Shown piece by piece: positions 1,490 to 25,154 of a stretch of 25,154 bases of DNA. How positions within the stretch are numbered: position 1 is the first letter of the stretch; the number at the start of each line of letters is the position of its first letter. The DNA comes from a virus. The stretch lies in IMG/VR virus record IMGVR_UViG_3300020442_003180, positions 1-25,154 of that record. The stretch is one strand, 5' to 3'. The translations under genes were made by a program, and so were the position numbers. The notes under the pieces are model-generated. The model had not been told where the DNA came from, did not search any database, and saw only the letters and a list, made by a program, of their open reading frames with translations.

Positions 1490-4400
1490 CTAACCGTCGT
1501 ATTTTACTAAAAAATTTATAGGATAACTGTCAGTAATTTTCACAGGTCGGCCTAGTTTTGCAACACCAACCAAAGAAAGACCATCGTATAATCCAATAGT
1601 TGTTACATGGGGTTTTAGGGAATCGAGGTTTTTTCCGTGTTTAATAAGTCTTTCTAAACTTTTAAACTTTGTAAAATTTTCCAAAATTTTAACTCCATTT
1701 TGTTTTCCCGTCATCTTATCTAAAAAATTAATTATATCGTTTGCAACTCTCCTCTTCGAGTTTTTATTTATTAAACCTTTTATTAGTTCAATTCCAGAGT
1801 TACCTCTAAAATACCTTACAATGAGTTTAGCATCAAGTGAATCTTGTACTCCATCCTGATTAATATCAAATAAGTTTTCTTTTTTGAGACTCAATAAATA
1901 AGGTTTGCATAATTCATATTCACTTAACTCCACATTATTTGACTCAGTTATAAAAAATTTTAAAATCGCATCCTCTGATTCAGTCATTAATATATCTGCG
2001 TTTGGCCAAGAAGAATCTTGCTCCATTACTATACCACCTTCAATTTCAGATTCACTTATAGCGTGGGATGGTTCATTTATTGTAAATTCTGTTAAAAATT
2101 TAAATATATAAATTAAATCTATAATATCAAATTTTCCATCTTTATTGACATCATATGGTATATCGTCTCTTATTACAGATGTTGGGTTTGTACTTACATT
2201 AAACTCATGTGGTTCTACTTTACACAGTATTTCGGTTTCAAATAAAGTGTGACTTCCTTTAAAAGTTAAGTCATATCCTGATTTTCCACTCTGTTTCATA
2301 AATAATTTCATATACGATTCACTTAAGTCATTTAAGACAATAATACCGTTCTTGTAAAAAATATTTCCTATTTGAGTTTTACGATTTTCAATTATCGTGG
2401 GAGAATCATATACCATGATGTGGCCAAATTTATTAGATAATTTGTCGTTATCGTTTTTATGTCTATAAATGTGTTTATCATAGTAAGAAAATAAACTCTG
2501 AGATGTACTTAAATTCACTGAGTCACTTGAAAAGGTTACAATCTCATAAAAAGGGAAACATCCGTTAATCGGACTTCCTGCATATGCAAAGTGGGGTGTT
2601 AGAGTTACACTATAACCAAACTGATGTCTAGCTGATAATTTATTTTTCGTTGATACTAAAGTTTTTAATAAATTGGGCTGTGTTTCATCTAATCTAAAAA
2701 AATGCACCTTGCCCTGTGTTAGATTGATTTGTTCATCTCCGACTTTCATAGACTCTTCCACAGAAGTTGATGTACCGATGAAGTAATCATCTATTTTTAA
2801 ATTTGAGTTTTCGTCATAATAAAAATTACTCATATCAATTGAGTGAGCACCTACCATTAATGTATTTTCATACAGAGATATAGAATGACCAAATCTATAT
2901 GTAAATTCTTCCTCTTGATCAATGGCAGAGTATATTTTATATAAAAATTTTAAGTCGTTGGTTTTTTCATATAAATAAACCGTACCTGCTTCGTTGTGTA
3001 TTATTTCATTTTTATAGGTACGATCAATTGAATCTCCAATTGCTACAAATCTTTCATTTACATCAATTGATATTCCAAATTTATTTTGTTCAGGTGGAAT
3101 ATATTGATAAGGATATAATACACTCTTTGTTCTATCTTTTGTTTCATATACACTCTCAATATTATTACTCAACGACCATATGCTTTTTTTTGTTATTTTA
3201 TTTATAAGATTCCACTCGTCTTTACAATTACCCGTGCCATATTCATAAACATATACTATTTGTTTTTTGGATGAGGGTGTTCCTACATATAGTTTATCAT
3301 GTGAAAGTTTTACAGTCTCTCCAAATTTTTCAAAATCTTCATCGGGATCACCAAAAATACAATCGATTAATTCCCATGTAGTATCACCAATTGCAAAATC
3401 AGGTGTTTCGGTATAATCGTGAGGTTTGTATCCAGAGTCAAAATCTTTGATTTCGTCTTTAATTGTAGCATCAACAGACATTCCTTCTCCATTAAACGTA
3501 TACAAATCAACAAGACAATCACCACTTTCTACAAATTCAATATTACCCGATATACAATTTTCATAACCTACGGTGTCTATACTTCCAGAAACCACTTCAC
3601 GTTCAGGTGTAGTAGACTCTATTACACATCCAGATATGATATTATACCACCACTCAGTAGTTGGTTCTGAAAGTGTTCCTGACTCAATACATCCGGACAT
3701 AAATAAATTACCAGAGTTTAATATTGATCCTGACATTAAACTTCCTGTTAATAATGATCCTGACATTAAATTTCCAGACTCAATGCATCCCGTCAAAAGA
3801 TTTCCAGATACAATACTACCCGAAACCAATCTATCAGGTACAATATGAGTAACCAAGTCACCACCTATTTTAATTGTTTCTACACTACCCGATTGATAAG
3901 TTCCCGAGTCACATATTTTTTCGTTACCAATAAATCCAGATTCATTAAATCCCCCCAATGTAGCTCCGTCTGGTATTAGACTCTTTACTTTCCAACGAGT
4001 TGTGTTTTTATTTATTTTTCTCAAAGTTTCTCCAGATGGATATCCAATTCTTTTATTTTTTTCAATATCATAAAAATAACCTTCCGGTACATCAGTCAAT
4101 CTTATCCAAGAACTACTTTTTGTTCTTTTAGTTTTTTTAAAAATATATACAACACCCGAACCATTCATAGCATTAGGAGCACCTATTGCCATTCTATCTG
4201 AGTCAATAGATATTGATTCACCAAAATCTGTATTTGGAATGCCTTCTAATATATTTATTAACCCCCAATTATCCGTTCCTCCTTTATTTTTTTCGTAGAT
4301 GAATACATGGCCAGTTCTGTGTTCGTCTGGTGTGCCTCTAATGTGACTTCTTGGAGAACCAATTGCACATATAGTTTCATCTATTTGCAATGAATTTCCA

Positions 4401-5560
4401 AACTGATCATTCAAAGAATAATCCGACCCAAGTAATACATCACTTATTTCTTTAAGTAATAGGTCATTGTGGTCTTGTCGCATCTCAAGTGCGAGTCCAT
4501 TTTGACTAAAAGGACAATAAAACTTTTTAAGACATCTAAATTTTTTATTTTGTTCGTCATGTTTGAACAAAGTTGCACTTCCCGACTGAGATTCGTCCAC
4601 GGCTGATTCGTCCACAGGTGAACCTACTAAAATATATTTATTATTTGAAGCTGATGTTTTTCCAAAACTATATGGATTATCAGTTTTTATTTCACCCTCT
4701 CCACACACAGCATCCTCATATCTAATTTTATTTATTTCCGAAAATGTATAATCATCTGTTATTAGGTTTGTATAACCATCATCTTTAATTTTAATTGTAT
4801 CAAACGGTGAACTATTATCTATAATTTCTAATGAATTTGGTTTTATTTTATCTCCAAAGTTTTTTTGTGATATTTCAATTACGGTAATCTTATCATCAAG
4901 TACCCGTCTTTCAAGCCTACGACCAGAATAAAAATCACCTTGGTCTATATCCTCTATAACAGTTGGATCATGGTATTCTGCACTTTCTACACCGAATAGC
5001 ATTAGAGGGTTTTTTATATTTAGTTTTTTATTGTTTGTGTGATCAAAGTGTTCTACAAAATAGTCGTTATAAAACAAGTGTTTTACATTGTTGTATATAA
5101 GTCTCTGATATGAACCATCCCAGTTTGTTGGTTCTTTTTTTGAATTATATCTCTTATGTTCAGTTGGATAAAAAGTACCATTTACATTATTACCTTCACG
5201 TGAAATGAGTTTTAATTTATTCCCCTTGTCTAATTTTATTTCTTCAGAAGCAGTTTGACTTCCATCTTCGCACAAGACAACATTGTCATTTTTTATTTTT
5301 TCAATTATATACTCTTTATATTCTAAAAATTCTAATCCACATACATTTATTTCACCATAACCATTCTTATTTAGAATCTCAGAGACCGAATTACACGTCA
5401 AATTAGAATAAAGTATCTCTGATGTTTTTTTTGATTTTATTTCATATATATCGTGTTCAATTAATAATGAGTCAAGACTATCAATTGTAGAATACTTCCA
5501 CCGTTTAAATGCAGTAAACGGCCGTACAGTTTTGTCAGAACTTTTAATTCTTTTTATCAT
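1490..5560 (-). CDS. Large virion protein with FG-GAP beta-propeller, Ser-Gly repeat and dockerin-like calcium loops
   Basis: The 1356-aa product is modular. Residues 1-290 form a unique N-terminal region. From about 297 to 1060 there are some eight FG-GAP-like motifs of the form FGxSIxxxxxxxxxGxP followed by GxVYIFxK (near 297, 387, 445, 745, 827, 888, 980, 1043), as in integrin-type beta-propellers. The propeller is split between the third and fourth motifs by an insert with Ser-Gly repeats (about 548-680). Two perfect dockerin/EF-hand-type loops follow, DVNKDGKFDIID near 1136 and DINQDGVQDSLD near 1232, each with a helix behind it. The last 40 residues (TTIGLYDGLSLVGVAKLGRP) match the end of the neighbouring 492-aa protein. 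There is no signal peptide. FG-GAP propellers and dockerins act in adhesion and protein docking, so a peripheral baseplate or host-binding part is likely. The ATG lacks a Shine-Dalgarno sequence. Confidence 0.85.
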   Translation of the reverse strand: MIKRIKSSDKTVRPFTAFKRWKYSTIDSLDSLLIEHDIYEIKSKKTSEILYSNLTCNSVSEILNKNGYGEINVCGLEFLEYKEYIIEKIKNDNVVLCEDGSQTASEEIKLDKGNKLKLISREGNNVNGTFYPTEHKRYNSKKEPTNWDGSYQRLIYNNVKHLFYNDYFVEHFDHTNNKKLNIKNPLMLFGVESAEYHDPTVIEDIDQGDFYSGRRLERRVLDDKITVIEISQKNFGDKIKPNSLEIIDNSSPFDTIKIKDDGYTNLITDDYTFSEINKIRYEDAVCGEGEIKTDNPYSFGKTSASNNKYILVGSPVDESAVDESQSGSATLFKHDEQNKKFRCLKKFYCPFSQNGLALEMRQDHNDLLLKEISDVLLGSDYSLNDQFGNSLQIDETICAIGSPRSHIRGTPDEHRTGHVFIYEKNKGGTDNWGLINILEGIPNTDFGESISIDSDRMAIGAPNAMNGSGVVYIFKKTKRTKSSSWIRLTDVPEGYFYDIEKNKRIGYPSGETLRKINKNTTRWKVKSLIPDGATLGGFNESGFIGNEKICDSGTYQSGSVETIKIGGDLVTHIVPDRLVSGSIVSGNLLTGCIESGNLMSGSLLTGSLMSGSILNSGNLFMSGCIESGTLSEPTTEWWYNIISGCVIESTTPEREVVSGSIDTVGYENCISGNIEFVESGDCLVDLYTFNGEGMSVDATIKDEIKDFDSGYKPHDYTETPDFAIGDTTWELIDCIFGDPDEDFEKFGETVKLSHDKLYVGTPSSKKQIVYVYEYGTGNCKDEWNLINKITKKSIWSLSNNIESVYETKDRTKSVLYPYQYIPPEQNKFGISIDVNERFVAIGDSIDRTYKNEIIHNEAGTVYLYEKTNDLKFLYKIYSAIDQEEEFTYRFGHSISLYENTLMVGAHSIDMSNFYYDENSNLKIDDYFIGTSTSVEESMKVGDEQINLTQGKVHFFRLDETQPNLLKTLVSTKNKLSARHQFGYSVTLTPHFAYAGSPINGCFPFYEIVTFSSDSVNLSTSQSLFSYYDKHIYRHKNDNDKLSNKFGHIMVYDSPTIIENRKTQIGNIFYKNGIIVLNDLSESYMKLFMKQSGKSGYDLTFKGSHTLFETEILCKVEPHEFNVSTNPTSVIRDDIPYDVNKDGKFDIIDLIYIFKFLTEFTINEPSHAISESEIEGGIVMEQDSSWPNADILMTESEDAILKFFITESNNVELSEYELCKPYLLSLKKENLFDINQDGVQDSLDAKLIVRYFRGNSGIELIKGLINKNSKRRVANDIINFLDKMTGKQNGVKILENFTKFKSLERLIKHGKNLDSLKPHVTTIGLYDGLSLVGVAKLGRPVKITDSYPINFLVKYDG
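3670..3835 (-). repeat. Ser-Gly pentapeptide-like repeat inside the FG-GAP protein
   Basis: About ten near-consecutive five-residue units of the form G-[NSC]-[LI]-x-[ST] are encoded, for example SGNLMSGSLLTGSLMSGS. Small residue, polar residue, aliphatic residue at period five resembles pentapeptide-repeat beta-helices. The DNA shows traces of duplication: a 16-bp direct repeat (tgatcctgacattaaa) at 3725-3740 and 3755-3770, 30 bp (two units) apart, and a related pair beginning at 3681 and 3777. Confidence 0.7.
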
Positions 5561-5602: not shown

Positions 5603-7081
5603 TTAAAAATCTAATTTTACTTTTATCAAAGCCTCTGAGTCAAATGTCTTAAGTATAGGTCTACTTGTCTTAGCTACTGCCACAAGTTCATTGTCACTGT
5701 TATACAGTCCAATTGTCGTTATGTATACTCGTGGGTCTTCTATAAATGTATTGTGTCTTATTCTTCCTAAATAGTTATCCACATCGGCATTAGCACGGGC
5801 TGCAAGTGTCCTTGCTTCATACCCTTGGTATACAAACGAAGGGTTGTTGCTATAATTAAAATCAGTATTTTTAATTCTTATAAAGTAATGCTTTGAGGGA
5901 ACAATCTCGGTACTACGACATTCAAATTTTCTACCCATCCTCAATGCATTAAAAAGTTTACGGAAGTTTTGATAGTTTCTATCACCACCCGCCCGTTGGA
6001 GTCGTTTTTGATTTACACCACCTTCGTTCCATGTATTTGAGTCGTTTATATTATTAACACTACCCGAGTCTGATGTAAACTCCTCAACACTTGCACTTAC
6101 TCCCTCTGCATCGTATGATGGATTTATATCACCAAACCAAGCAAATCTTGCACCTTCGTTTTCTTCTTTTATATAGGTTGATGGTATTGAGTTTCCAAGT
6201 TCCTTATACTTGACTACTGCGTTATCAAGTCCAATACACAATTGATCAGAAATCGCACGGGTATTTAAAACTATAATACCAAGATCGGGATAAACTAAGC
6301 CAAACCCAAGACTTTTTTCAGGCGAATATCTTATATCGTATCCAGATGAATCCACTGCGTTTTCGGGTTCCGATGTCATTCTGATTATATCAGAGTCATC
6401 ATTGTTATATCTATCTGAATTTTGTGTTTTTACTAAATCAAAAACTCTACCAAACTGAGGTGATGATGAAACATAATTTAAGGATGTTCCAAAAACACTT
6501 GCATCCTGAAATGCAACTCTGTAGTTTATTTCTTCATTTACAGAAACTCCAAGGGAAAACAAAAAATTTCCTTCATCAATTTTTTCTTTCATTCTTGATG
6601 TAGAAAAATTAATAAAATGACAATAATCTGCATCGTATCCCACAAATGAATTATTTACTTTTCTCGTAAATGTAAACCTTTTATCATCCGGATTTAATAA
6701 TATATTTTTATATTGTGAATATACATTTTTTGTAATTTGTGGAGTTTTATTATTAAATGCTGAGTTTAGTGGACTTCCATATCCGTTTATATGACCATAC
6801 GACAGAGAAAATTGTTGTTTTGAGTTTTGATTTAAAAGTCCTGCAATATAGACCTCCTCGTGATATACATCCATGTAGTAATCTTCTTTTTTTGGACTTG
6901 TCCAGTTTTCATATATTTCATCAGCAGAGGTTGCACTCGATAAAGGTGTAGTTTGATTCTCTTCATCAAAAAAGAATTCAGTCAATTCAGAGGGGTTATC
7001 TCCACTGAATAACCCATCGTGTATTGATGTGACCCGTCCAGATACGGTATCAGTTGATTCGAGTTCTTTAAAAATTGCCAC
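5603..7081 (-). CDS. Tail/baseplate structural protein, unnamed family
   Basis: The 492-aa product starts with GTG (MAIFKELESTD), with AGG about nine bases upstream, two bases after the stop of the 221-aa gene, so the two are almost certainly co-translated. It is soluble, with no membrane segment or signal peptide. A central segment (HFINFSTSRMKEKIDEGNF, about residues 160-180) resembles in spacing ITVIEISQKNFGDKIKPNS in the 1356-aa protein. The C-terminal 40 residues (TTIGLYNSDNELVAVAKTSR and following) are clearly related to the end of that protein. I infer that both are attached to the virion by the same type of terminal module. As far as I recall, comparable proteins occur beside baseplate genes in uncultured T4-like phages, but no T4 equivalent is recognisable, so the exact place in the tail is open. 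Confidence 0.8.
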   Translation of the reverse strand: MAIFKELESTDTVSGRVTSIHDGLFSGDNPSELTEFFFDEENQTTPLSSATSADEIYENWTSPKKEDYYMDVYHEEVYIAGLLNQNSKQQFSLSYGHINGYGSPLNSAFNNKTPQITKNVYSQYKNILLNPDDKRFTFTRKVNNSFVGYDADYCHFINFSTSRMKEKIDEGNFLFSLGVSVNEEINYRVAFQDASVFGTSLNYVSSSPQFGRVFDLVKTQNSDRYNNDDSDIIRMTSEPENAVDSSGYDIRYSPEKSLGFGLVYPDLGIIVLNTRAISDQLCIGLDNAVVKYKELGNSIPSTYIKEENEGARFAWFGDINPSYDAEGVSASVEEFTSDSGSVNNINDSNTWNEGGVNQKRLQRAGGDRNYQNFRKLFNALRMGRKFECRSTEIVPSKHYFIRIKNTDFNYSNNPSFVYQGYEARTLAARANADVDNYLGRIRHNTFIEDPRVYITTIGLYNSDNELVAVAKTSRPILKTFDSEALIKVKLDF

Positions 7082-7817: not shown

Positions 7818-10800
7818 TTATGTTGCTTCTTTTATAACACCACATAGAGGTCCCATATACTCAGTTGTACCATATTTGTATTTTCCGTCATTAGGTCCAC
7901 CCTTTATTTGAAACTTCATCCGTCTTCGTGTGTCTGCACTTAGAGTTGGGTCATCGATTAAATGCTTATTTTCGTTATACCAATTAGTGGCATCTCGGGC
8001 ATGTCTTTCTTGATAATATTCAAAATCAAAAATATCTAAAAATTCAAGACCACCACAATTTTCATTTTGATTTGAAATTAGTAGATTTTCTTGTTTTCTT
8101 GTAGATTCATACAACATCCCGACTAAATCAGATGCAGTCTCTCCCAATTCAATATCACCATATGGAAGTGCTTTACTATATAGTCTTATATCATCGATTG
8201 ATCCAGAAAATCTACCAATCTCAAGTTTATCTAATTTAATTTCTTCATGCTCTACACCGAGGTCATAATTTTTTACAAATACATTATCCACAAACACATC
8301 AACTAAACCAATATCATAAAAAACCAAAGATACATGGGACCAAATATCCTCTAAAAGTTTTATGTTAAGATCAACTAAATGTGAATCAAGCGAATTTTTC
8401 CAAGCATATCCGATTGACAATTTGTTTCCGTTTGGGTTTAAAACTATACCATGCCTTTCATTATTCACCACAGAGTTATTGAAAACAATACCAGCATTAT
8501 CCTGACTTACACCCGTTGGACGAATCCAAAAACTCAAAGTGCATGAGTTCATTTTTATTATATTTTGATTATCACCCTCTGTATAAAAATCAATAAAACT
8601 ATTAGTATTACTTTCATTATCAGCTACATCATTATCAAGTGATACTATTTTTTTGTAGTTTCTTGCCGTACCTCCGTTTCTTATTTGTGCATTTCTCAGG
8701 ATTCCACGTCTCTTGTGTTTAGATGAATCAATAACTATATTTTCATCATCTGACCTACTCTCAAAATCCAAGTGAAGTTCAAGATGATCGTTATTAAGTT
8801 CAGTCGGAGTGCTTTCAGATTCATCTATGGGTTGGGTGGTGTTTGCTTGTTCCGAATATCCACATGACAAAGGAGTTGCGTATGTTTTATCTTCAAGATA
8901 CCAAAAGGTATCTCCCATGCCACCACGGAGAGCAGCTTTTCTTGTTCTAACAATCGGCGGCGACATATCCGCATTTCCAGTTGTAGATACTGTGTTATTC
9001 AAGCAGCTTACTGACTTTCTACAGTGAACATTTTTCTTTGATTTTGTTTGCTTACCACGATCACTCAAATTAAATTTACGATGTGTTGTGAGTGGTCCGT
9101 TTAGTATATTCTTTTTATTATTTCCTATATCAATTATATTGTAATAATTAAATCTTGACTCTATTTTAATCTTATTCTGTATATCCAACTCAGAGTCAAG
9201 TTTTACAATTGAAAGTGGGGATGGATTGGGCCCAAGTTGTGTTTTAAATTTCTTTTTAAAGTCTATGTAATAATTTGAAATTTTAGATTCGTCGTTAATT
9301 ACATTGAATCCATATACATAATCAGCCGATGGAACTATATCAACAAAATCTGTACTTATTTCAATATTCGTTGTATCTAATCGTAAGACAGTTTCACCAT
9401 ACAATTTGCTTATTTTATCGGTAACTTCTGAAATCTTTATTATTTTTGCACTTTCCAAAAATCTAATACCATACATTACCCATAAAAATGATCCTTCTCT
9501 AAAAACAATATTTATTTTATCACCTACTTTTAAATTGTCCGGTCTCCTTTTTGGATAGCAAATTTGTGTTTCATCTCTGTGATAACTCATATTAATATCT
9601 AATTTATATTTTGATGACGATGACTGATATTCAAAATTTAGTGAACTTGGTAGTTTGAACAAAACACCCCCACCGTTATATGAAATATTTCTAATTTCAG
9701 AAGTTTTAACTTGGTTCGGTATTTTGAGTTCAAGTATATATTTTTTTGTATCACTTTCGTTCCTATCTACATTTACTATTGTGTAAAAATGATCATTAAA
9801 ATCAACAAAGTCAAATTTATTTGCTTTCCAATCAATACCACTTACAAAAACTACATCACCATTAAGTAACTCTTCATCTGATGTTATTTGTAAGTTTAAT
9901 AAATTTAATTTTTTATTATAGAAATTTTCTGACGAAGTACCTGTAATTTTAAATTCAGGTGAATCAAGTTTTACTAAAACATCAGACTTATTATACAATA
10001 TTGATGAAAATTTTGCGTTGTTAAATTCACAAAATAGTTTTAATTCTAAGAAATTTGCTTCATGGTCAAGTTTTAATGATTGATTAAATTTAAATGGTAT
10101 TTGATATTTTTTTATAAGATCAACTTCACCTATGTGAGTTTCTAATAATTTATTATTATCTGAAGAATCAAAAGATTCAACTTCAATTATATTATATCTA
10201 CCGTCTCTGTTGTCACATTTAAAATCTTCATCTTGTGTTATATTTCGATATGATTGTGTCGTATCTTTAACACTTAATGTAGGCAGTTCAAAATCTTCAT
10301 TAAAATTAGAAAAATCAGTATGTTTTTTTACCTTAATATTGTCTATATAGTCGTATGATGATTGCGATATTGATAGAATATTTTTTTTATCTTCTTTTTT
10401 CCATTTGATTTTGAATGAACAAACCGGAGGTGGAATTAATATTGCACGTGAACGTAAATTAAGTCTACATTGATAGATTCCACTTGCGTTTATATATTTT
10501 CCTGTTTCGTTTTTTAAAAAAATGTTTGTTTTTTTACTAAAGTTAAAAGTCAAATCATGTTCTATATTTTTTGGTATTTTAATTTTATTAACCTCAGAAG
10601 ATCCAAATGTTTCGTCTATTTTTATTATTTTATTTTTACTAAATAAATCTGACTTACTTTGTAAAAACGTTCCTCTTAATTTTTTATCCTTAACTAAACT
10701 TTTTATTTTTCCAGTAAAAATAGACCTTTGTGCTTTTATGTCGCATTCATTATATTTAAACCCACCGAAAGTACCAACTACTGTAAAGTTTTTAATAGAC

Positions 10801-13800
10801 CCATTTTGAATTACAATATTAGCAGAACCATAGATTTTACCCAAAATCACATGACCAACAAAATTAAATTTAAACTTTGCGTAATCATCTGAATACAAAG
10901 AACGGTCAAGAATATTACCATAAATAAGCTCTCCGTTTAGTGTTGCTTCTTTATGAACATAAAAAGAAGAACTTTCATCTTTTGTATTGCCGTACACTTC
11001 TGCATTTATCTCAGAATTTTCTAATATATTTCCTTGAATTCTTACTGCCTCATATATTCTTTTTATATTATCTTTTTTAATATATCTTGAATATAGCTTG
11101 TCACTCAATTCGATTTTGCTATCCGATGTAATACCTCTATAGGAATTGATTCCATACATAATATCATTTGGAATATTTAGAAACTGATTAAAATTTAATT
11201 CAGAAGGAAAAAAACTTGATTTTTTATGTGATATTTTTACATTAGTTTTTAGTCCCGATATATCTTCTTCTTTTATCTCATAATAACTTCGGGCATTTCC
11301 ATGTGACATTATTTTTTTATTAACCAAACCTGCTTTGATTTTTATATCATCTTGTATAAGGATTTCGTTTTTAATAGGACGTCTTTGTAATTTACTTCTC
11401 TCAAGTAAAGTGGGTTCTACAACTAATCCAGACATTAGAATTGTTCTTGCGGGTATTAGTTTTTCTATATTTTTAAATAAAGAAGGATCTAAATACGATT
11501 CTAAAATTGATAAATAATTACTAAAGTCTACCTCACCATATCCATGTTTAAAAAACAAGTGTTGCACGTTTGAAAATCCTTCATAAGTTTTATTGTATAA
11601 TTCAGAAGGATCACCTATATAATCACCAAGTTCAAAGTCTCCAAAAAATCTCAATATTTCATGATTTAGGATGTCAGAGGGACTAAAATACACCCCAAGT
11701 TTGTTTGTATCTATCGTAAATCTATCACCACTTTTTTTTGTGCTTCTTTTTGAAACCGATAGTTGTGTTTGTAATTCTTGAGTTTCTATTCTTATTTTAT
11801 TATTATTGAAAACTTGCGATCCATATGCCGGTAACTTTGCAGTTTGTCTTTTGTTTTGACCCGAAAAATTGTAAGGGTATTCTTTTGCATCAAATCCAAA
11901 CGCCTTTGCATACCTACTTACATCATCCCTAATTGCCGTATTTTGTATCTGTCCATATTCCACATCCTCCGGTGTTAGTTCATATGGAAAGTCAAAGTTT
12001 GCTTTGAATACAAGTGTATCCTCAAGTTCAAAAGGATTTGTTATATCATACGATTGATTAAACTTTATATGGTTCTCGAATCTGTCTTCTTTTATTGGAT
12101 TAGAATAAACTCTTAAACGATTTAATTTACCAAAAAAATTAGAATCATATATATTACCAATTCCAACACTGATGGGTGATAAAAATCTTTTAATATTTTC
12201 TTTTTTTAGAGAAATTTTACATTGTCCATTGTAAACTAAATCTTCATCGATATATCTTTTGACATATATTTGTATTCCGGTATCCGTCCACCTCGATGAT
12301 TCTGATATTTGTAGCAATACATCAAACGTGTTTCCACCAAAGGGATAAATGTCTTCTTGATGACCGTCAATTGACACATACTCTTTTCTTGCGTTTATTA
12401 AATCACCATCGGTATGTTTTATTTCAAAGTAAAATTTACCCCAACCAAGTTCATGAATCTTTGTGTCATTTGAATCGTATGCTTCAAAACCAAAGGTCCA
12501 CACCGACCCTTGGTGGTTATCTATTTCATCGTTTACTCCCGAGATTATTTCAATATTTTTGGTAATATCACATAAATTATCATTTAGTTCAAAATTTAAT
12601 TCAATGCTTTTTGAATTGTAGTTTGGATGATTCCAATCAAGTAAGAGATACTGATTGGATGATGAAAAAACAAGATGATAATCAAAGTGGTCAAATGTAT
12701 ATAAGACTTTATCATTTAATTCTGTATTATACTCAATCCCACCGAACTCACGAATTCTGAATAAATAGTCTGGAATACCATAACATCTGAATAATGCTCT
12801 TAAAGATTTCTCTGTTCCTATCGTTTTTAATATATACGGTAAATTATTTAGTATACGTCTCCAAACTATATGTTTTTTTTCTTTAAATCTCTTGATATAA
12901 TCAAGATGCTCTTTGGTTTTTACCTCACGTATTAGTGTTCCAATTTCACCCTCTTCATATCCCTCAAAAGACCCACCAAAATAACCAAGCATGTGAGATA
13001 CCATTTCATTAGGAATGCCCCTATCCTCTTTATTAAGAGGTTTTTTAATATTACCAATACCTTCTACATATAAGTGAATTAAATCAAATTGGTGACCAAC
13101 GAAAGCAAGAAAATCAAAGTAATCGGAGTTATCCTGATCACGTGTTATGAATTCAGGTGTATTATTAAAAAACGAATTATCATTGTATTTATCATAAATA
13201 TCTGCTTGCTTAGCCCTTTTGGCGTACCAATTGTATCCTTCGGTTTGGGAAAATTCCTGCATAGTAGCAGGTATAGGCATTGGACGATAATAACTACGGG
13301 CTGATAAAAAATTATAATTACTGGTATTTAAGGGAATTTTTTTACCAACACACTCTCCACATTTACAAAAAAACTGCCATCTGTCACTTTGTCCAGGTAT
13401 ATCTTCTGGTTTTGGATTTTCTCCCGTAGATACCGTCCATATTGAGTCATCATACAACACCGCATCCCCCTCGGTATAATCATATACCGTTGACTCCCAA
13501 TCATCAACGGAGTCGCAATTAAAATCGGCTCTTGGCCAAGAAACATATGTATAAAGTAACTTTGATTCAAGTTCACGTATTTCATCAGATAAAAGCCCAG
13601 AGTCGTCTCCCTGTAAAGATATTTTTAATTTTAATTCATCGATTTTTTCCTTATATTCTTTTGCAGATTCGGTTAATTCTGTAATATCTTCAAAATATAG
13701 AAATCTCTCGTAACCATCTAAGTTATTTAGAATATCAAGTTTTTTTGTATTTAGTTTATTTAATTGTGAATCATAAGATATTCTGCTGAACTTTTCCGGA

Positions 13801-15425
13801 CTGCTGTTTCTCCAAGATCTTCTTATTTCTTCAAGTTGCCTATCGATCTCTGATATTTTTGTTAATTTTAATATAAAAACATCAAGTCTTTTTCTTGCCG
13901 AAGAATATCTTACGAAATTTTCAAATTTAGAGTAATTTACTGTTAAGTAATAATCCTCTGTCTGATTATTAAAATAATTTGAAATTTCTTCCGTAATTCT
14001 TATTGGAGTCCCGAACACTTCTTCACGCATCTCAGTCTCTATATCTTTTATTTTTTCAAGGATACCAGGATCATTTGATTTTAAATTTAACAAACTATTT
14101 CGTTCTATTTCAATATTTGTTTTTTTGAGTTGCTCAGATGTATACTTTCTTGTTCCTTGGCCCGCAAGTCCACTTAAATCTGGATTTCTTAGTTTAAAAA
14201 CTTTTGGTTTTGTTTTTTTATACAATAATACTCTTTGTATTATATCATCAGAATATATAGAACTGTTTAAGTGAAAATTTGAACCAACTACTATATCGTT
14301 TGGCAGAGGAGTAACCAATTTTAGAATAAGTGGTGTGTGTTTTCTTTCATCATTTAAGTTTTCACTTCCTCTGTTCGTGGCAAGTACAGGAATTTCATGG
14401 TCACCAAAAACCATAATTGTGGATAAGTAAGAATCAAACTTTTCTTTATATATTTCTTTTACTTTATTAGAATCATATAAAACAAGAAATATATCTTTGT
14501 ATATACTCTTAATATTATTGTAAGTCTTGTCTTGAGTGTTTGAAAACTTACTTAAATTATTTAGAACATAGTCAACACACTTTACATACTCAGTATAAAA
14601 ATCAACTTCCTTGAAAATTGATGTATATTTCCACAAAAAAATATTTTTATATAAACTTTTAATTTGATTGTATATATCATCACACTCGTCCGACAAATCA
14701 TCAATTGAATTTAGTTTGAAGAAATCAATTATAGTATATACCTTATCACGAATATCTTCTATAATAAAACCACTGTCAATTAGTTCTTTAAAATGAACTC
14801 TTAGACTTTTATTTTTTAAGAAAAAAGGTATTTCGTGAAAGACATGAGATATTGGTATTTTTTTATCAAAGTAATTAATATATTCGTTATTTAAAACCAC
14901 ATCAGCAGGAAGTGTACTGCTTTTTAAAGAACTTGGTAATACTTTTAGTTCTGTTCTACTTGGGGAAATGTCCTGTACAACCAGTTTTGTTTTTGACTCG
15001 AACGAACCTATTGTCTCATTTTTCATAGACACTCCGATTAGGAACGACCCACTCATTTCTCCAAGTTCTAATAACTCATGTGTTGGTGAAAAAACGACAT
15101 GATTATCATCAGTTATTTCAAATTTATTATTGAAAACAGAGATTGTACCAACCCGTCTTGTACCAGTGTAATCTACAAAATCAAATGATTGTCTTTTATA
15201 TTTTTCGTTTGGTTGAATGTTTTTTTGTTTTATTACATTTGTATCATTATCATATATTGAAAATACTACGACATCTTTTGGGTTTCTACCAAATTTAAGA
15301 ACTGCTTCTGAATCGAGTTCATTTACTACAATTCTGTATATATCCGGATCGACCATCGATACACGTGGATAGTCAAAACCTTCGTTTGTGGCAGGTTCTT
15401 TTATGAACTTTATGTAATTACTCAT
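7818..15425 (-). CDS. Giant multidomain tail/baseplate protein with LamG and chitin-binding-like modules
   Basis: The 2535-aa product has an N-terminal beta region (1-165) ending in ISPSRTELKVLP. A helical, partly coiled-coil region (about 490-630) leads to GYERFLYFED. A short module at about 645-690 (YTEGDAVLYDDSIWTVSTG, then WQF) has the pattern of carbohydrate-binding family 5/12 (chitin-binding type 3), closed by CKCGEC. A helical segment at about 850-905 (LKTIGTEKSLRALFRCYGIP) resembles the P2 gpI-like baseplate domain. It is followed by a first concanavalin-like region (920-1115), a long unassigned stretch with beta-rich Gly/Asn segments (about 1465-1600), and a clear LamG-type domain at about 2212-2420 (CTLSFWIRPTG, VSLVFYD, GSIDDIRLYSKAL). 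LamG and CBM domains bind glycans. A peripheral baseplate protein touching the host surface is inferred. The ATG has no Shine-Dalgarno sequence. Confidence 0.88.
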   Translation of the reverse strand: MSNYIKFIKEPATNEGFDYPRVSMVDPDIYRIVVNELDSEAVLKFGRNPKDVVVFSIYDNDTNVIKQKNIQPNEKYKRQSFDFVDYTGTRRVGTISVFNNKFEITDDNHVVFSPTHELLELGEMSGSFLIGVSMKNETIGSFESKTKLVVQDISPSRTELKVLPSSLKSSTLPADVVLNNEYINYFDKKIPISHVFHEIPFFLKNKSLRVHFKELIDSGFIIEDIRDKVYTIIDFFKLNSIDDLSDECDDIYNQIKSLYKNIFLWKYTSIFKEVDFYTEYVKCVDYVLNNLSKFSNTQDKTYNNIKSIYKDIFLVLYDSNKVKEIYKEKFDSYLSTIMVFGDHEIPVLATNRGSENLNDERKHTPLILKLVTPLPNDIVVGSNFHLNSSIYSDDIIQRVLLYKKTKPKVFKLRNPDLSGLAGQGTRKYTSEQLKKTNIEIERNSLLNLKSNDPGILEKIKDIETEMREEVFGTPIRITEEISNYFNNQTEDYYLTVNYSKFENFVRYSSARKRLDVFILKLTKISEIDRQLEEIRRSWRNSSPEKFSRISYDSQLNKLNTKKLDILNNLDGYERFLYFEDITELTESAKEYKEKIDELKLKISLQGDDSGLLSDEIRELESKLLYTYVSWPRADFNCDSVDDWESTVYDYTEGDAVLYDDSIWTVSTGENPKPEDIPGQSDRWQFFCKCGECVGKKIPLNTSNYNFLSARSYYRPMPIPATMQEFSQTEGYNWYAKRAKQADIYDKYNDNSFFNNTPEFITRDQDNSDYFDFLAFVGHQFDLIHLYVEGIGNIKKPLNKEDRGIPNEMVSHMLGYFGGSFEGYEEGEIGTLIREVKTKEHLDYIKRFKEKKHIVWRRILNNLPYILKTIGTEKSLRALFRCYGIPDYLFRIREFGGIEYNTELNDKVLYTFDHFDYHLVFSSSNQYLLLDWNHPNYNSKSIELNFELNDNLCDITKNIEIISGVNDEIDNHQGSVWTFGFEAYDSNDTKIHELGWGKFYFEIKHTDGDLINARKEYVSIDGHQEDIYPFGGNTFDVLLQISESSRWTDTGIQIYVKRYIDEDLVYNGQCKISLKKENIKRFLSPISVGIGNIYDSNFFGKLNRLRVYSNPIKEDRFENHIKFNQSYDITNPFELEDTLVFKANFDFPYELTPEDVEYGQIQNTAIRDDVSRYAKAFGFDAKEYPYNFSGQNKRQTAKLPAYGSQVFNNNKIRIETQELQTQLSVSKRSTKKSGDRFTIDTNKLGVYFSPSDILNHEILRFFGDFELGDYIGDPSELYNKTYEGFSNVQHLFFKHGYGEVDFSNYLSILESYLDPSLFKNIEKLIPARTILMSGLVVEPTLLERSKLQRRPIKNEILIQDDIKIKAGLVNKKIMSHGNARSYYEIKEEDISGLKTNVKISHKKSSFFPSELNFNQFLNIPNDIMYGINSYRGITSDSKIELSDKLYSRYIKKDNIKRIYEAVRIQGNILENSEINAEVYGNTKDESSSFYVHKEATLNGELIYGNILDRSLYSDDYAKFKFNFVGHVILGKIYGSANIVIQNGSIKNFTVVGTFGGFKYNECDIKAQRSIFTGKIKSLVKDKKLRGTFLQSKSDLFSKNKIIKIDETFGSSEVNKIKIPKNIEHDLTFNFSKKTNIFLKNETGKYINASGIYQCRLNLRSRAILIPPPVCSFKIKWKKEDKKNILSISQSSYDYIDNIKVKKHTDFSNFNEDFELPTLSVKDTTQSYRNITQDEDFKCDNRDGRYNIIEVESFDSSDNNKLLETHIGEVDLIKKYQIPFKFNQSLKLDHEANFLELKLFCEFNNAKFSSILYNKSDVLVKLDSPEFKITGTSSENFYNKKLNLLNLQITSDEELLNGDVVFVSGIDWKANKFDFVDFNDHFYTIVNVDRNESDTKKYILELKIPNQVKTSEIRNISYNGGGVLFKLPSSLNFEYQSSSSKYKLDINMSYHRDETQICYPKRRPDNLKVGDKINIVFREGSFLWVMYGIRFLESAKIIKISEVTDKISKLYGETVLRLDTTNIEISTDFVDIVPSADYVYGFNVINDESKISNYYIDFKKKFKTQLGPNPSPLSIVKLDSELDIQNKIKIESRFNYYNIIDIGNNKKNILNGPLTTHRKFNLSDRGKQTKSKKNVHCRKSVSCLNNTVSTTGNADMSPPIVRTRKAALRGGMGDTFWYLEDKTYATPLSCGYSEQANTTQPIDESESTPTELNNDHLELHLDFESRSDDENIVIDSSKHKRRGILRNAQIRNGGTARNYKKIVSLDNDVADNESNTNSFIDFYTEGDNQNIIKMNSCTLSFWIRPTGVSQDNAGIVFNNSVVNNERHGIVLNPNGNKLSIGYAWKNSLDSHLVDLNIKLLEDIWSHVSLVFYDIGLVDVFVDNVFVKNYDLGVEHEEIKLDKLEIGRFSGSIDDIRLYSKALPYGDIELGETASDLVGMLYESTRKQENLLISNQNENCGGLEFLDIFDFEYYQERHARDATNWYNENKHLIDDPTLSADTRRRMKFQIKGGPNDGKYKYGTTEYMGPLCGVIKEAT

Positions 15426-16032: not shown

Positions 16033-17292
16033 TTATCTAATTACTTTAAATTTTATTTGATCCTGTATTATTTTTGTTTGATTTGGAGATTCTACTCTTA
16101 TCTCAAAAAAGTATATTCTATCCACATTTAATATCCCAAAATCAAAATCAAAATAATGTCCGTTGCCATCACAACTTATTCTTGTATAAATATCATGTTG
16201 TATAATGCGTTCTTGAGTATCCGCATCCACCACCGAATAGAACATTGGGTAATCTACAAAATTATTTTGTGTGTATCTTGATTTAGTACTAATTTTTTTT
16301 ATAGGATATTTCTCTCTTACATTTACCCTAACTCTAAGTTGCTCTTTTACAGATATTTCATTCTTTATATTTTTTAGTGAAACAAATATATCTTCACTTG
16401 AAATAAATTCAAGATCAGGTTTCCTATTTACTACCTTATATTCCATTGTTGAAGTTGTATTTGGGTTTTCTGTGTTTGTACATGAACCACTTTCTACATT
16501 TTTTATACTTCCCGAAATATCATTTAGTGTTCCACTTATTTGATTTACATTACTGCCACTTACAATGTTATGGTATTCAAATTGGTTTGAATTATTATAA
16601 ATACAATTTACTTCTTCTACTGATGTACATCCACATGGATTGAAAATATAATCATTTTTTGCAACCTTTACGAATGGTTGATATATTGTATTTGTATCTT
16701 TTGAAAAGAAATTTACTTTACTATTATGGTTTATTGTCTCGTCTGAAAACTTAATAATAAGACCATTATTTTCTAATATATTAGACATCCACATATCAAC
16801 GTAGTTTGTAATATCAAAACTTACATCAGAAGTTCTTTTATTAAAAATATAAGTTGGTATATTTTCAACTCCGTACAAATCTCTGAGTTCCGTTTCGGTG
16901 TAATAGTCACCACCCCCCTCATCTCGCACCCATGTAGTTCCATGCCCACTTGTCTTCCAACTTGCCCCACTCATATGGTCAGAGTCAAATCTACGGCCAA
17001 ATCCTTCCTCCCAATTACTTTTAATCGGAAATATCTCAAGTGCAGTATTTCCAGTTAACTCATGTGAGTCTGATATTTTTAAATTTAAGTTAAAGTTTGA
17101 ATTGTAAAAAATGCCTTGATTTCTCTCACCATTCAGATTAAATTGTACAAGTAGTCTTGATATATGGTGGCCACTTTCTTCTGAATATAGATTAGTCAAT
17201 TCAAGTATTTCATCAAGACCTGTATTTAGAGTTTGGTCTTTTTTGTATTTAAATATTGTTGTATCTTTTTCTAAATAAATAAAACTGTTCAC
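16033..17292 (-). CDS. DNRLRE-like beta-sandwich protein of the baseplate
   Basis: The start is GTG, overlapping the gp6-like stop as GTGA, with a strong GGGAGGG ribosome site. Residues 3-212 follow the DNRLRE/CBM-like pattern: DTTIFKYKKDQTLNTGLDEI, then SRLLVQFNLNG, LEIFPIKSNWEEGFG, an aromatic Gly-rich loop (SWKTSGHGTTW), SFDITNYVDMWMS and FFSKDTNTIYQPFV. A Cys-containing hinge (CGCTSVEEVNC) and a Ser-Gly segment (VSGSNVNQISGTLNDISGS) follow. The C-terminal 130 residues look like a second beta domain. DNRLRE domains are found in surface and adhesion proteins and are thought to bind carbohydrate. The position immediately after gp6 corresponds to where T4 has wedge genes gp7 and gp8, but no sequence similarity to those is visible. 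A peripheral baseplate role is likely. Confidence 0.8.
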   Translation of the reverse strand: MNSFIYLEKDTTIFKYKKDQTLNTGLDEILELTNLYSEESGHHISRLLVQFNLNGERNQGIFYNSNFNLNLKISDSHELTGNTALEIFPIKSNWEEGFGRRFDSDHMSGASWKTSGHGTTWVRDEGGGDYYTETELRDLYGVENIPTYIFNKRTSDVSFDITNYVDMWMSNILENNGLIIKFSDETINHNSKVNFFSKDTNTIYQPFVKVAKNDYIFNPCGCTSVEEVNCIYNNSNQFEYHNIVSGSNVNQISGTLNDISGSIKNVESGSCTNTENPNTTSTMEYKVVNRKPDLEFISSEDIFVSLKNIKNEISVKEQLRVRVNVREKYPIKKISTKSRYTQNNFVDYPMFYSVVDADTQERIIQHDIYTRISCDGNGHYFDFDFGILNVDRIYFFEIRVESPNQTKIIQDQIKFKVIR

Positions 17293-19268
17293 GAAACTAC
17301 CCTCCCAACTACATCTCTATCAGGAAATTTTAGTTCAAAAATACAAGGATCAACGGACGGATGTATCACTTTGTTATATGTGGCTGCCTCGATATTATAT
17401 TCATTCTCGGAATAATTCCCATCATTTATTGTTTTGTTAAAAATTCTTAGGCTTACTACTGACTTAACTCCATGAATTTTAGATACCTCCAACTCGACCT
17501 CACTCAATTCTATCGATTGTCCTATACTCCAACGATCTATGTTAAAATATCTTTTTATCGAATCAAGTACACTATCAAGTACCTCGATATTATTATAGTT
17601 TTGAAAAACAGAAATCTCGATATCAATTCCTATATTTACTACAAACGCATCTGTAATGTTAATACCATCTGTCAATAATTTGTATTGACCTAAATATGTT
17701 CTTAAGTTTCTATATACTAATTCGTTTGGTGACACCAAATTTTTATTGTTATCATAACTTAGTATATAAAGGTTTATTGCAAAAGGATTATTTATCTCTC
17801 CATATGCATTTGTGAGTCCATTTGAAGATAGTTTTTTTGTAGACTCACCTAAGTTATTAATAAATTCAAATTGCGTTTTGGTATCTAAAATTCCATCGGG
17901 TGATACAAACGCTTTTGCTATACTTCCAAATTTTGTTGGCATTGAGTAAGCTCGTATTACATAATCTTCACGGGTAACGGCCCGGTTTTGTGCAGAAAAG
18001 TACGCAAGTGCGTTTCTTCTAATTTCTTCAGAAGACTCCGGGCCCTTGCCCCCCATTGCTGGATTATTATTATTTACCTTAACACTACCTTTAATTGTAT
18101 TTAAAATTGTTCTTTCACTTGGTTCCAGATATTCTACTTGGTCACCGTACTCAATTTTAGTAATATTTGTTAATGTATTTGATGAAACATTTGAATCAAT
18201 GCCCCCACCTACATAATATTCAACCACGAGTGTTGTATTTGACGGAGCCTCTCCATAACTTTTAGTTTTTAAAAAATTTGCTGGATCCATTGCAACTTCA
18301 AATGCAGGATCAGTTTTTATTGTTCTACCAACATTGTTTAAATTTGGAACAATTATTTCATCATCAATTTTATCCGTACCAGAACCAAATTCAATTGTAG
18401 TTGTGTTGTCTGAGTTTACACGGGTTGTAAATCTACGAGAAGTTCGCAAGAATCTTAGAACATAGGGTGTTGACTCAGCATACTTTGAGTAGAATGGATT
18501 TTTTTTAAAACTGTTTTCCTCCTCAAGAAATATTGTATCATTGGCAAGATAGGGAACTTGATAATACTTATTTCCATTTTCATCTTTTATCGTTGTAATT
18601 TCAAGTACATTTGGTTCTACCAATTCAATTTCAAAAAATTCTTCTGCCTCACCCACTACAACATTTCTTGTTTTCTTTGTACCAGCAGATGCCATTACTA
18701 CTTTCTTAAGTAAATAAAAAGTAGGTTCTTTTGAATTTGGATCACGATCAAATACCGAAACCTCTCTTGGGTTATCCGGTGTATCTTCGTAAAAATTAAC
18801 TGAATCAAGTGTTCTGAAAACGGTTGTTGTCGTATCAGTTGATTGTATTTCCATTCCTGCCAAAATGTTTAAAGCAAACTTATAGTCAGGTTTCAATTCT
18901 CCGGTTTCACTATCAACAATTGCGGGTACAAGTTGAAATACGTCAACCTCTACCAAAGCAGCGGTTGATGTTTTTGGCATATAACCCAAATAATTAGCAA
19001 GAGTGACTATGTTCTTGCGTTCTTCTGCATGTTGCATGAACCCTTCTTTAAATTGGTAATCTATATAGTATGATAAAACATCACCAACATAACTTGCGAG
19101 TTCGATGAACATCATTCCTGTTGAATTTTCACTAAAGTCTTTGTATGTTTTTGGAAAATATGACTTTGCATATTCTACAAGATTTTTTTTAAATGAATTG
19201 AAATCTTTTCCAAGATAGTTTATATCACGGGATGTAGTTTTAATTTTTTCTGAATTTCCTATCTCCAT
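17289..19268 (-). CDS. 6: Baseplate wedge protein gp6-like (Baseplate J family)
   Basis: The 659-aa length is close to T4 gp6 (660 aa). The N-terminus has the family pattern GKDFNSFKKNLVEYAK (20-35) and FIELASYVGDVLSYYIDYQF (54-73), then AEERKNIVTLANYLGYMP. The central conserved part includes ESSEEIRRNALAYFSAQNR and AVTREDYVIRA, typical of the Baseplate_J/gp6 core, and a C-terminal region ends with WSIGQSIELSEVELEVSKIH. gp6 dimers form the inner ring of the baseplate that keeps the wedges together and drives the change of shape at sheath contraction. It starts four bases after gp25, with GGAG 10 bases before the ATG, and overlaps the next gene by GTGA, so the wedge genes are co-translated. 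No oddities were seen. Confidence 0.93.
   Translation of the reverse strand: MEIGNSEKIKTTSRDINYLGKDFNSFKKNLVEYAKSYFPKTYKDFSENSTGMMFIELASYVGDVLSYYIDYQFKEGFMQHAEERKNIVTLANYLGYMPKTSTAALVEVDVFQLVPAIVDSETGELKPDYKFALNILAGMEIQSTDTTTTVFRTLDSVNFYEDTPDNPREVSVFDRDPNSKEPTFYLLKKVVMASAGTKKTRNVVVGEAEEFFEIELVEPNVLEITTIKDENGNKYYQVPYLANDTIFLEEENSFKKNPFYSKYAESTPYVLRFLRTSRRFTTRVNSDNTTTIEFGSGTDKIDDEIIVPNLNNVGRTIKTDPAFEVAMDPANFLKTKSYGEAPSNTTLVVEYYVGGGIDSNVSSNTLTNITKIEYGDQVEYLEPSERTILNTIKGSVKVNNNNPAMGGKGPESSEEIRRNALAYFSAQNRAVTREDYVIRAYSMPTKFGSIAKAFVSPDGILDTKTQFEFINNLGESTKKLSSNGLTNAYGEINNPFAINLYILSYDNNKNLVSPNELVYRNLRTYLGQYKLLTDGINITDAFVVNIGIDIEISVFQNYNNIEVLDSVLDSIKRYFNIDRWSIGQSIELSEVELEVSKIHGVKSVVSLRIFNKTINDGNYSENEYNIEAATYNKVIHPSVDPCIFELKFPDRDVVGRVVS
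17300..17306 (-). promoter_or_regulatory. Strong Shine-Dalgarno before the GTG start of the DNRLRE-like gene
   Basis: GGGAGGG on the minus strand, seven bases before the GTG at 17292 and inside the end of the gp6-like gene. It is the strongest ribosome site in the window and decides this non-ATG start. Confidence 0.7.
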
Positions 19269-19272
19269 CTTC

Positions 19273-19659
19273 TTAGAACTCCAATGAAAGTAATTGCTCG
19301 GAATCTGGAATTGAAATCATCCTAAACTTAATTACTACCTTTGCGTGGTTTGGTTCTTTTATGTAATCACGATCAACCAATACCGATATAACAAATATTT
19401 CAGGCATCCATATTTGCACAGCTTCCTTCACCGCATCTTCAAGAAGATCATCTACATACCCCTCTGTATTTGACTCAAATATAATTTCTCGTAAATCACT
19501 TCCGTATGTCGGCATCATAGGTCTTTCTCCTTTTGATGTCATTAATAGCATTTTTAGGTTTGTTAGTCCTCTCACCATGTCCGAGTTTGTTTGTTTAAAG
19601 AAACCCGAACTACCACGTGAATATGGAAAAGTAATACCAACTGGAACAATATCTACCAT
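19273..19659 (-). CDS. 25: Baseplate wedge protein gp25-like
   Basis: The 128-aa product matches the GPW/gp25 family in length and pattern: an N-terminal beta strand (VGITFPYSRG), SDMVRGLTNLKMLLMTSKGE, the conserved ERPMMPTYGSDLREIIFE, a helical segment ending in EAVQIWMPEI, and C-terminal strands (VISVLVDRDY, HAKVVIKFRM). gp25 joins gp6 and sheath at the baseplate core and is conserved from phages to type VI secretion (TssE). AAGG lies nine bases before the ATG. It lies between a 134-aa unknown (2 nt) and gp6 (4 nt), the order 25-6 being that of many contractile-tailed phages. Confidence 0.93.
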   Translation of the reverse strand: MVDIVPVGITFPYSRGSSGFFKQTNSDMVRGLTNLKMLLMTSKGERPMMPTYGSDLREIIFESNTEGYVDDLLEDAVKEAVQIWMPEIFVISVLVDRDYIKEPNHAKVVIKFRMISIPDSEQLLSLEF

Positions 19660-24512: not shown

Positions 24513-25154
24513 TCAATTATTTTTATCATTTATACCAACATTACCAAGTGTACTTCCGTTTAAATAACCACTATTTACTTTTGTTTTTTTGATTTTATTG
24601 TAATAATCCATTGAGGTTTTCTTCCAAGGAACATAATAAGGACCCATGTTTTCTGGATTGGTTTGTTCTGTATTTATGTCATACATTGGTGTTGATAAAA
24701 TATTATCATCAATTTGGTGTTGATTGGTTTGGTTACTGGTTTTTTTCAAAGTTATTTTTAGAGTCGGAGTTGGTGTTGAGGTTGGAGTATCTTCGGGGGT
24801 TGGGGTTGGGGTTTCTTCGGTAGTCGGAGTTGGTGTTGGAGTATCTTCGGGGGTTGGGGTTGGAGTATCTTCGGGAGTTGGAGTCGGAGTTGGGGTTGGG
24901 GTATCTTCGGAAGTTGGAGTCGGAGTTGGGGTTGGGGTATCTTCGGGAGTTGGAGTCGGAGTTGGGGTTGGAGTATCTTCGGGAGTTGGAGTCGGAGTAT
25001 CTTCGGGAGTTGGAGTCGGAGTTGGAGTATCCTCAACTACATCTTCTATGAAGTCACCATCTTCTTGGAATTTATCAACAAATGGTAAATTATCTATCCA
25101 ATTTTTTTTTTCGGTAACTCTTCTCCAAGAGTCATTCTTCCACCTACCATAATG
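24513..25154 (-). CDS. C-terminal part of a protein with a Thr-Pro/Glu-Asp repeat (partial, runs off the right edge)
   Basis: The minus-strand frame is open from the window edge to the TGA at 24515-24513, giving 213 residues of a longer protein. It begins [19 protein letters not shown], continues through [19 protein letters not shown], then a repeat of TPTPTPED blocks of about 90 residues, and ends with an Asn/Lys/Tyr-rich tail ([18 protein letters not shown]). A TTG at 24749 could be mistaken for the start of a 78-aa gene, but the frame runs straight through the repeat into it. TP/ED repeats are flexible extended linkers in secreted and cellulosomal proteins. Here they would separate an unseen N-terminal part from a C-terminal 70-residue tail. 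The gene lies upstream of the sigma factor operon; its function is unknown. Confidence 0.8.
24762..25034 (-). repeat. Degenerate tandem repeat coding for TP...ED blocks
   Basis: About nine blocks of three to five Thr-Pro pairs, separated by Glu-Asp (once Glu-Glu), are encoded in one frame on the minus strand. Block lengths differ by whole TP pairs (6 bp), which points to gain and loss of units by slippage. The plus strand reads as G-rich gttggggttggagtat-type DNA and is far higher in G+C than the rest of the window. It is not a CRISPR array: there are no unique spacers and the repeat is coding. Confidence 0.85.

Follow-up and report, generated by a model that had tools for sequence, protein, structure and literature searches.

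What do two dockerin-type calcium loops do in a large phage protein that also carries an FG-GAP propeller? Most known dockerins belong to bacterial enzyme complexes or to some archaeal and bacterial surface proteins. The window analysed here is a 25,154-nt stretch of viral DNA (the source record is a 25 kb viral fragment), and positions 1490-5560 on its minus strand encode a 1356-aa ORF. The gene closes a cluster of baseplate genes, within which the sequence-only reading had placed it; the ORF and its gp6/J- and gp25-type neighbours bear this out (PHROG baseplate wedge 76 and 61 bits; PF04965 43 bits). Pfam finds FG-GAP_2 (PF14312) at 73.4 bits (cut-off 23) and Dockerin_1 at 28 bits (cut-off 22.9) in the protein, so that a profile search, one of the checks suggested earlier, put both domains over their cut-offs. 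The Dockerin_1 match is made of two halves that match separately, each of them weak by itself.

Table 1. Features of the 1356-aa protein gene, its neighbours and its three-gene version (positions refer to the window unless a contig is named)
Feature	Position	Strand	Basis or remark
Whole gene, 1356 aa	1490..5560	-	ORF; Pfam FG-GAP_2 and Dockerin_1 over cut-off
N-terminal phage scaffold module (N-module), residues 1-285	4706..5560	-	start signature common to LamG homologs
Propeller of FG-GAP type with seven GAP-strand repeats, about residues 295-1045	2426..4678	-	FG-GAP_2, AF2, Foldseek
Ser/Gly-rich low-confidence insertion after blade 3, residues 487-716 (230 residues)	3413..4102	-	AF2 pLDDT mostly <50
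C-module first half, residues 1060-1130 (GNIFYKNG...EFNVSTNPT)	2171..2383	-	alignments
Dockerin-like insert between C-module halves, residues 1131-1313	1622..2170	-	
First calcium loop DVNKDGKFDIID (residues 1137-1148), followed by helix 1146-1158	2117..2152	-	
Middle element WPNADILMTESED (residues 1185-1197), conserved, where helix 1195-1209 begins; no calcium hand	1970..2008	-	
Second calcium loop DINQDGVQDSLD (residues 1232-1243), flanked by helices 1212-1227 and 1241-1252	1832..1867	-	
C-module second half, residues 1314-1356 (TTIGLYDGLSLVGVAKLGRPVK...)	1493..1621	-	
Neighbouring scaffold paralog, 492 aa, without propeller or dockerin	5603..7081	-	C-terminal signature shared
Baseplate wedge genes fixing context: gp6/J type 17289-19268, gp25 type 19273-19659	17289..19659	-	
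Three-gene version	L130 3889-6873; L132 3950-6873		scaffold, propeller, C-module with insert

The propeller is the clearer of the two domains. Eight FG motifs can be picked out by eye (residues 299, 387, 446, 746, 828, 890, 981 and 1045). The sequence-only reading had listed eight FG-GAP-like motifs; the FG motifs stand, but a 'GAP' strand follows just seven of them, the eighth running on into the C-module, and the propeller therefore has seven blades. The fold proposed earlier is borne out by the FG-GAP_2 score and by structure prediction: AF2, run on the 1356-aa protein with relatives as alignment, gives a confident propeller (apart from the Ser/Gly-rich insertion and some loops, pLDDT is mostly 80-96), for which the best solved-structure matches in Foldseek are integrin alpha chains (integrin alpha E 2.5e-6, TM 0.58 by target). 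Giant-virus FG-GAP and integrin-like proteins are among the top matches to viral models. The protein has FG-GAP repeats and seven blades in common with integrin alpha and bacterial FG-GAP proteins, but the identity is about 10%, the phage blades lack calcium loops and a phage scaffold surrounds them. No Dx[DN]xDG loop occurs in the blades; both such motifs of the protein lie in the dockerin-like insert. This general motif, propeller calcium blades included, is treated in PMC3123361.

The central part of the Ser/Gly-rich insertion was found in about 4% of relatives. Within it, positions 3581-3868 (residues 565-660) encode some ten SG/TG pentapeptide-like units (SGSIV SGNLL TGCIE ...). Similar SG runs occur in the protein encoded beside gp6 at 16033-17292, which also has a weak match, under the cut-off, to a disaggregatase-related repeat (19.6 bits).

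Where do the calcium loops belong? A direct protein search for close relatives found none until the C-module alone served as query, and with the 1356-aa protein the match in sequenced phages was limited to residues 1060-1136 because the C-module is interrupted by the insert. When the insert was removed from the query the Mel-JY01, immuto, LR756508 and RM378 phages matched at once. The C-module makes up the last 300 residues (GNIFYKNGIIVL...EFNVSTNPT ... TTIGLYD..LVGVAKL.RPVK) and is broken by about 185 residues that contain both calcium loops; its first half has columns that are invariant family-wide. The insert occupies a single fixed site, at which insert-less homologs are continuous: the gap there is about 20-57 aa in these and about 176-335 aa in insert-bearing ones. 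Since the C-module of homologs is continuous, and since bare-scaffold and LamG-bearing versions exist, the 1356-aa protein can be described as a phage scaffold that carries two inserts: the propeller separates the N-module from the C-module, and the split dockerin-like module interrupts the C-module itself. The two loops are thus parts of one insert in a conserved phage module, and the architecture is common to many phages, both of which points the sequence-only reading had missed.

The relatives illustrate this anatomy. WWT39517 of Microcystis phage Mel-JY01 and other LamG homologs (L028-L084 group) have the same N- and C-modules and the same place after the baseplate genes, but carry a LamG lectin in place of the propeller and lack the dockerin insert. 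The minimal scaffold proteins of Flavobacterium phage immuto (gp165) and of LR756508 agree in both modules and in context but are bare, with neither insert. The Mel-JY01 and immuto phages have the gene order of the window, and LR756508 has related genes. Among solved structures no relative was found of the C-module or of the 492-aa paralog, and the LamG-containing alignment retrieved just generic LamG and pentraxin folds. PHROG gave no convincing match for either the C-module or the paralog, the better matches being to LysM inserts of some members.

The motif DxNxDGxxDxxD occurs exactly twice in the protein, at residue 1137 (DVNKDGKFDIID) and residue 1232 (DINQDGVQDSLD); two perfect loops had been noted near 1136 and 1232, and their separation, given then as some 96 residues and as wider than in a dockerin, is 95. 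Composition shuffles (n = 20,000) yielded one such motif in 2 cases and two motifs in 0. Both hands have the Dx[DN]xDG signature with the last Asp at position 12, as in PF00404, and AF2 predicts a helix after each (1146-1158 and 1241-1252, pLDDT about 86-90). The other predicted helices of the insert are 1195-1209, 1212-1227 and 1273-1284 (pLDDT about 80-90 for the whole set); a first AF2 model, made from the C-module alone, was poor except for the helices. Cellulosomal type I dockerins (PF00404) likewise have a helix after each of their two DxNxDGxxDxxD hands, and the phage protein is over the Pfam cut-off for them. However, their hands are adjacent, about 33 aa apart in a module of ~60 aa, whereas the phage loops are separated by 95 residues (median 88, range 67-198 in 53 members) and by two helices extra to the dockerin plan, in a phage-module setting and with no cohesin found. 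Foldseek gave no dockerin match. Because the adjacent-hands feature is absent, the insert is called dockerin-like and is not filed as a dockerin; of the dockerin module proposed earlier, the calcium loops, the predicted helix after each and the Dockerin_1 score hold up, and the spacing does not. A degenerate third calcium hand had also been proposed (WPNADILMTESEDAI). The family does conserve this helical stretch. Scored with a profile built from the calcium hands of the family itself, however, the middle element does no better than shuffles, and the candidate was rejected.

Conservation was assessed in a sample of 53 diverse, non-redundant, full-length insert-bearing members. The calcium ligands are kept in loop 2 in 51 of them, in loop 1 in 43 and in both in 41; Dockerin_1 is matched at E <0.01 by 41/53. 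Loop 1 ligands are lost in several members, some of which still have the helices. At position 10 of loop 1, 50 of the 53 have an aromatic or hydrophobic residue (F/I/Y), and the clade of the 1356-aa protein conserves the middle element WPNxDILxTESED. FG-GAP_2 is present in 53/53; the propeller is found in every full-length insert-bearing member of the sample, as a separate gene in L130 and L132. It is of note that six relatives (L018, L021, L022, L023, L024 and L027) have open frames of >3100 aa that keep the dockerin-like insert and have weak FG-GAP scores.

How widespread is the family? Scanning viral contigs with the C-module alignment gave 520 candidate stretches encoding relatives, of which 80 were kept. 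In about 28 of the 80 the insert occupies the same position, and its loops are typically separated by 93-100 aa; most of the rest show a gap of about 20-57 aa, with LamG or no insert. When the alignment that includes the dockerin served as query in another scan, at least 317 relatives came up, contigs of 369, 365 and 279 kb among them. The family thus occurs in several hundred uncultured viral contigs, some of 279-369 kb: the insert-bearing form is in jumbo phages and not in the isolates searched. No dockerin-like insert was found in a collection of 50,697 phage records, and a single scan of bacterial genomes found no relative, so no prophage of the family was seen.

In a tree built from the scaffold columns alone, a single change accounts for the 53 insert-bearing members, which group together (support 81/82, 80% of bootstraps), the nearest outsiders being the bare-scaffold L064 and L067. 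The simplest reading of this tree would be one ancient acquisition of the insert, followed by descent. Mean pairwise identity is 0.30 for the insert, 0.275 for the propeller and 0.46 and 0.60 for the C-module halves; this comparison gave no clear signal of a propeller evolving faster, as a sign of receptor variation.

Natural gene splitting gives a second view of the domain borders. In many relatives the propeller gene begins at blade 1, and of 38 loci at which the N-module signature is missing from the propeller or C-module gene, 25 have it on a separate upstream ORF. In L130 and L132 three adjacent genes encode the N-module (209-211 aa), the propeller (469 aa) and the C-module with the dockerin-like insert (294-295 aa). 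The breaks coincide with the assigned domain borders, so the parts would assemble without a covalent link unless the splits are assembly errors, which is unlikely because L130 and L132 are independent contigs.

Taken with the anatomy, the fixed insertion site and the conserved ligands, gene splitting makes a role within the virion the most likely one for the calcium module. We consider it slightly better than an even chance that the protein is a baseplate adhesin in which a two-part phage scaffold carries an integrin-like seven-bladed propeller head and a split calcium-loop module acting in the virion. The propeller would be the exposed head and contact the host surface. Both loops would take up calcium extracellularly, and the helical calcium module would stiffen the C-module inside the virion and help to hold propeller head and scaffold together, instead of binding a host cohesin. 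More probably, then, the loops help to build or stiffen the phage particle than plug into a host scaffold. Some findings count against this reading: the insert has diverged nearly as far as the propeller, further than one would expect of a closely packed contact conserved within the particle, several members have lost loop 1 ligands, and Foldseek matched no dockerin. Even if the part of the module were purely structural, the family would account for large unknown genes adjoining baseplate wedges, and it provides an example of a scaffold that takes LamG, FG-GAP, LysM and dockerin-like domains at fixed sites.

Does the module have a partner in the particle? It may be that a dockerin which phages acquired a single time has become a calcium-dependent plug inside the particle, with another baseplate protein as its unrecognised socket. 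We regard this as unlikely. If true, it would be a viral counterpart of the cohesin-dockerin pair, setting how an adhesin head is mounted or released, and a new principle of phage-tail assembly and a source of calcium-controlled connectors. It is similarly doubtful that the insert is a spacer with no partner at all, in which calcium just folds the helices and the role is one of length or rigidity. Insert length does vary by whole domains, with LysM between the halves in some relatives, and the helices survive loss of loop 1 in some members, as a spacer would allow; the near-complete conservation of loop 2 and that of WPNxDILxTESED in the clade of the 1356-aa protein speak against it.

Docking to a host scaffold was one of two functions suggested by the sequence-only reading, the other, docking within the virion, being the one favoured here. 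For a calcium-dependent adsorption to a cohesin on the host surface or on a secreted host scaffold one can cite the Dockerin_1 score, the conserved ligands and the company of adhesin-type domains. We nevertheless found no support for docking to the host and think it rather improbable. A host-specific scaffold interaction is hard to square with one family-wide module that is conserved in very different phages and looks vertically inherited across them, and no cohesin-bearing host is known for any relative. Furthermore, cellulosomal dockerins have polar recognition pairs at position 10 of loop 1, the position that is F/I/Y in this family.

A cohesin in the phage itself was also sought, as had been proposed. 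None scored over the cut-off in 47 phage records (the 25-kb stretch and 46 others, many of them fragments, and including the 369, 365 and 279 kb contigs), and in the records searched Dockerin_1 matches are confined to one protein per record. Sub-threshold cohesin matches of 13-16 bits appeared in the neighbouring scaffold paralog of four related phages (the equivalents of 5603-7081 in L086, L087, L168 and L170); with Pfam cohesin, one paralog in 32 reaches E 0.13, and these matches are probably due to chance. A further match proved to be a coiled-coil membrane protein and was rejected as chance.

Dockerin-type hands usually bind calcium structurally. It is accordingly quite unlikely that the loops are a switch that loads as virions exit the calcium-poor cytoplasm and changes the shape of the adhesin, even with two EF-hand-type loops and high extracellular calcium (for context see PMC3123361). 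Finally, that the motifs arose by chance and have no relationship to dockerins, as the weak Pfam match of each half and the wrong spacing might hint, is refuted by the ligand conservation in both loops and the Dockerin_1 matches of the relatives, and can be set aside almost entirely.

Dockerins have been mentioned in phages before, as a predicted carbohydrate-binding module of an E. coli phage (PMC5967307) and as a gene of possible bacterial origin in VvAW1 (PMC3558961). We came across no account in the open literature of a phage adhesin with a dockerin, or of a propeller combined with a dockerin-like module in phages. In the present case a dockerin-like module is conserved in a family of probable baseplate adhesins of phages, one for which no PHROG match was found.

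Several minor observations concern the scaffold and its surroundings. In six relatives (L011, L013, L020, L025, L033 and L041) the C-module has LysM or LysM-like repeats between the dockerin-like halves, that is, a peptidoglycan-type binding domain nested in a split module. In the window, positions 7818-15425 encode a 2535-aa baseplate-region protein with a LamG domain close to its C-terminus, and tandem repeats of 24-36 bases lie at 24761-25031, where the minus strand can read Pro/Thr-rich repeats of the PEDTPTPT type. In Mel-JY01 the scaffold C-terminal signature is present in five tandem genes (L002 3480-12426), which suggests repeated duplication of this scaffold part of the baseplate.
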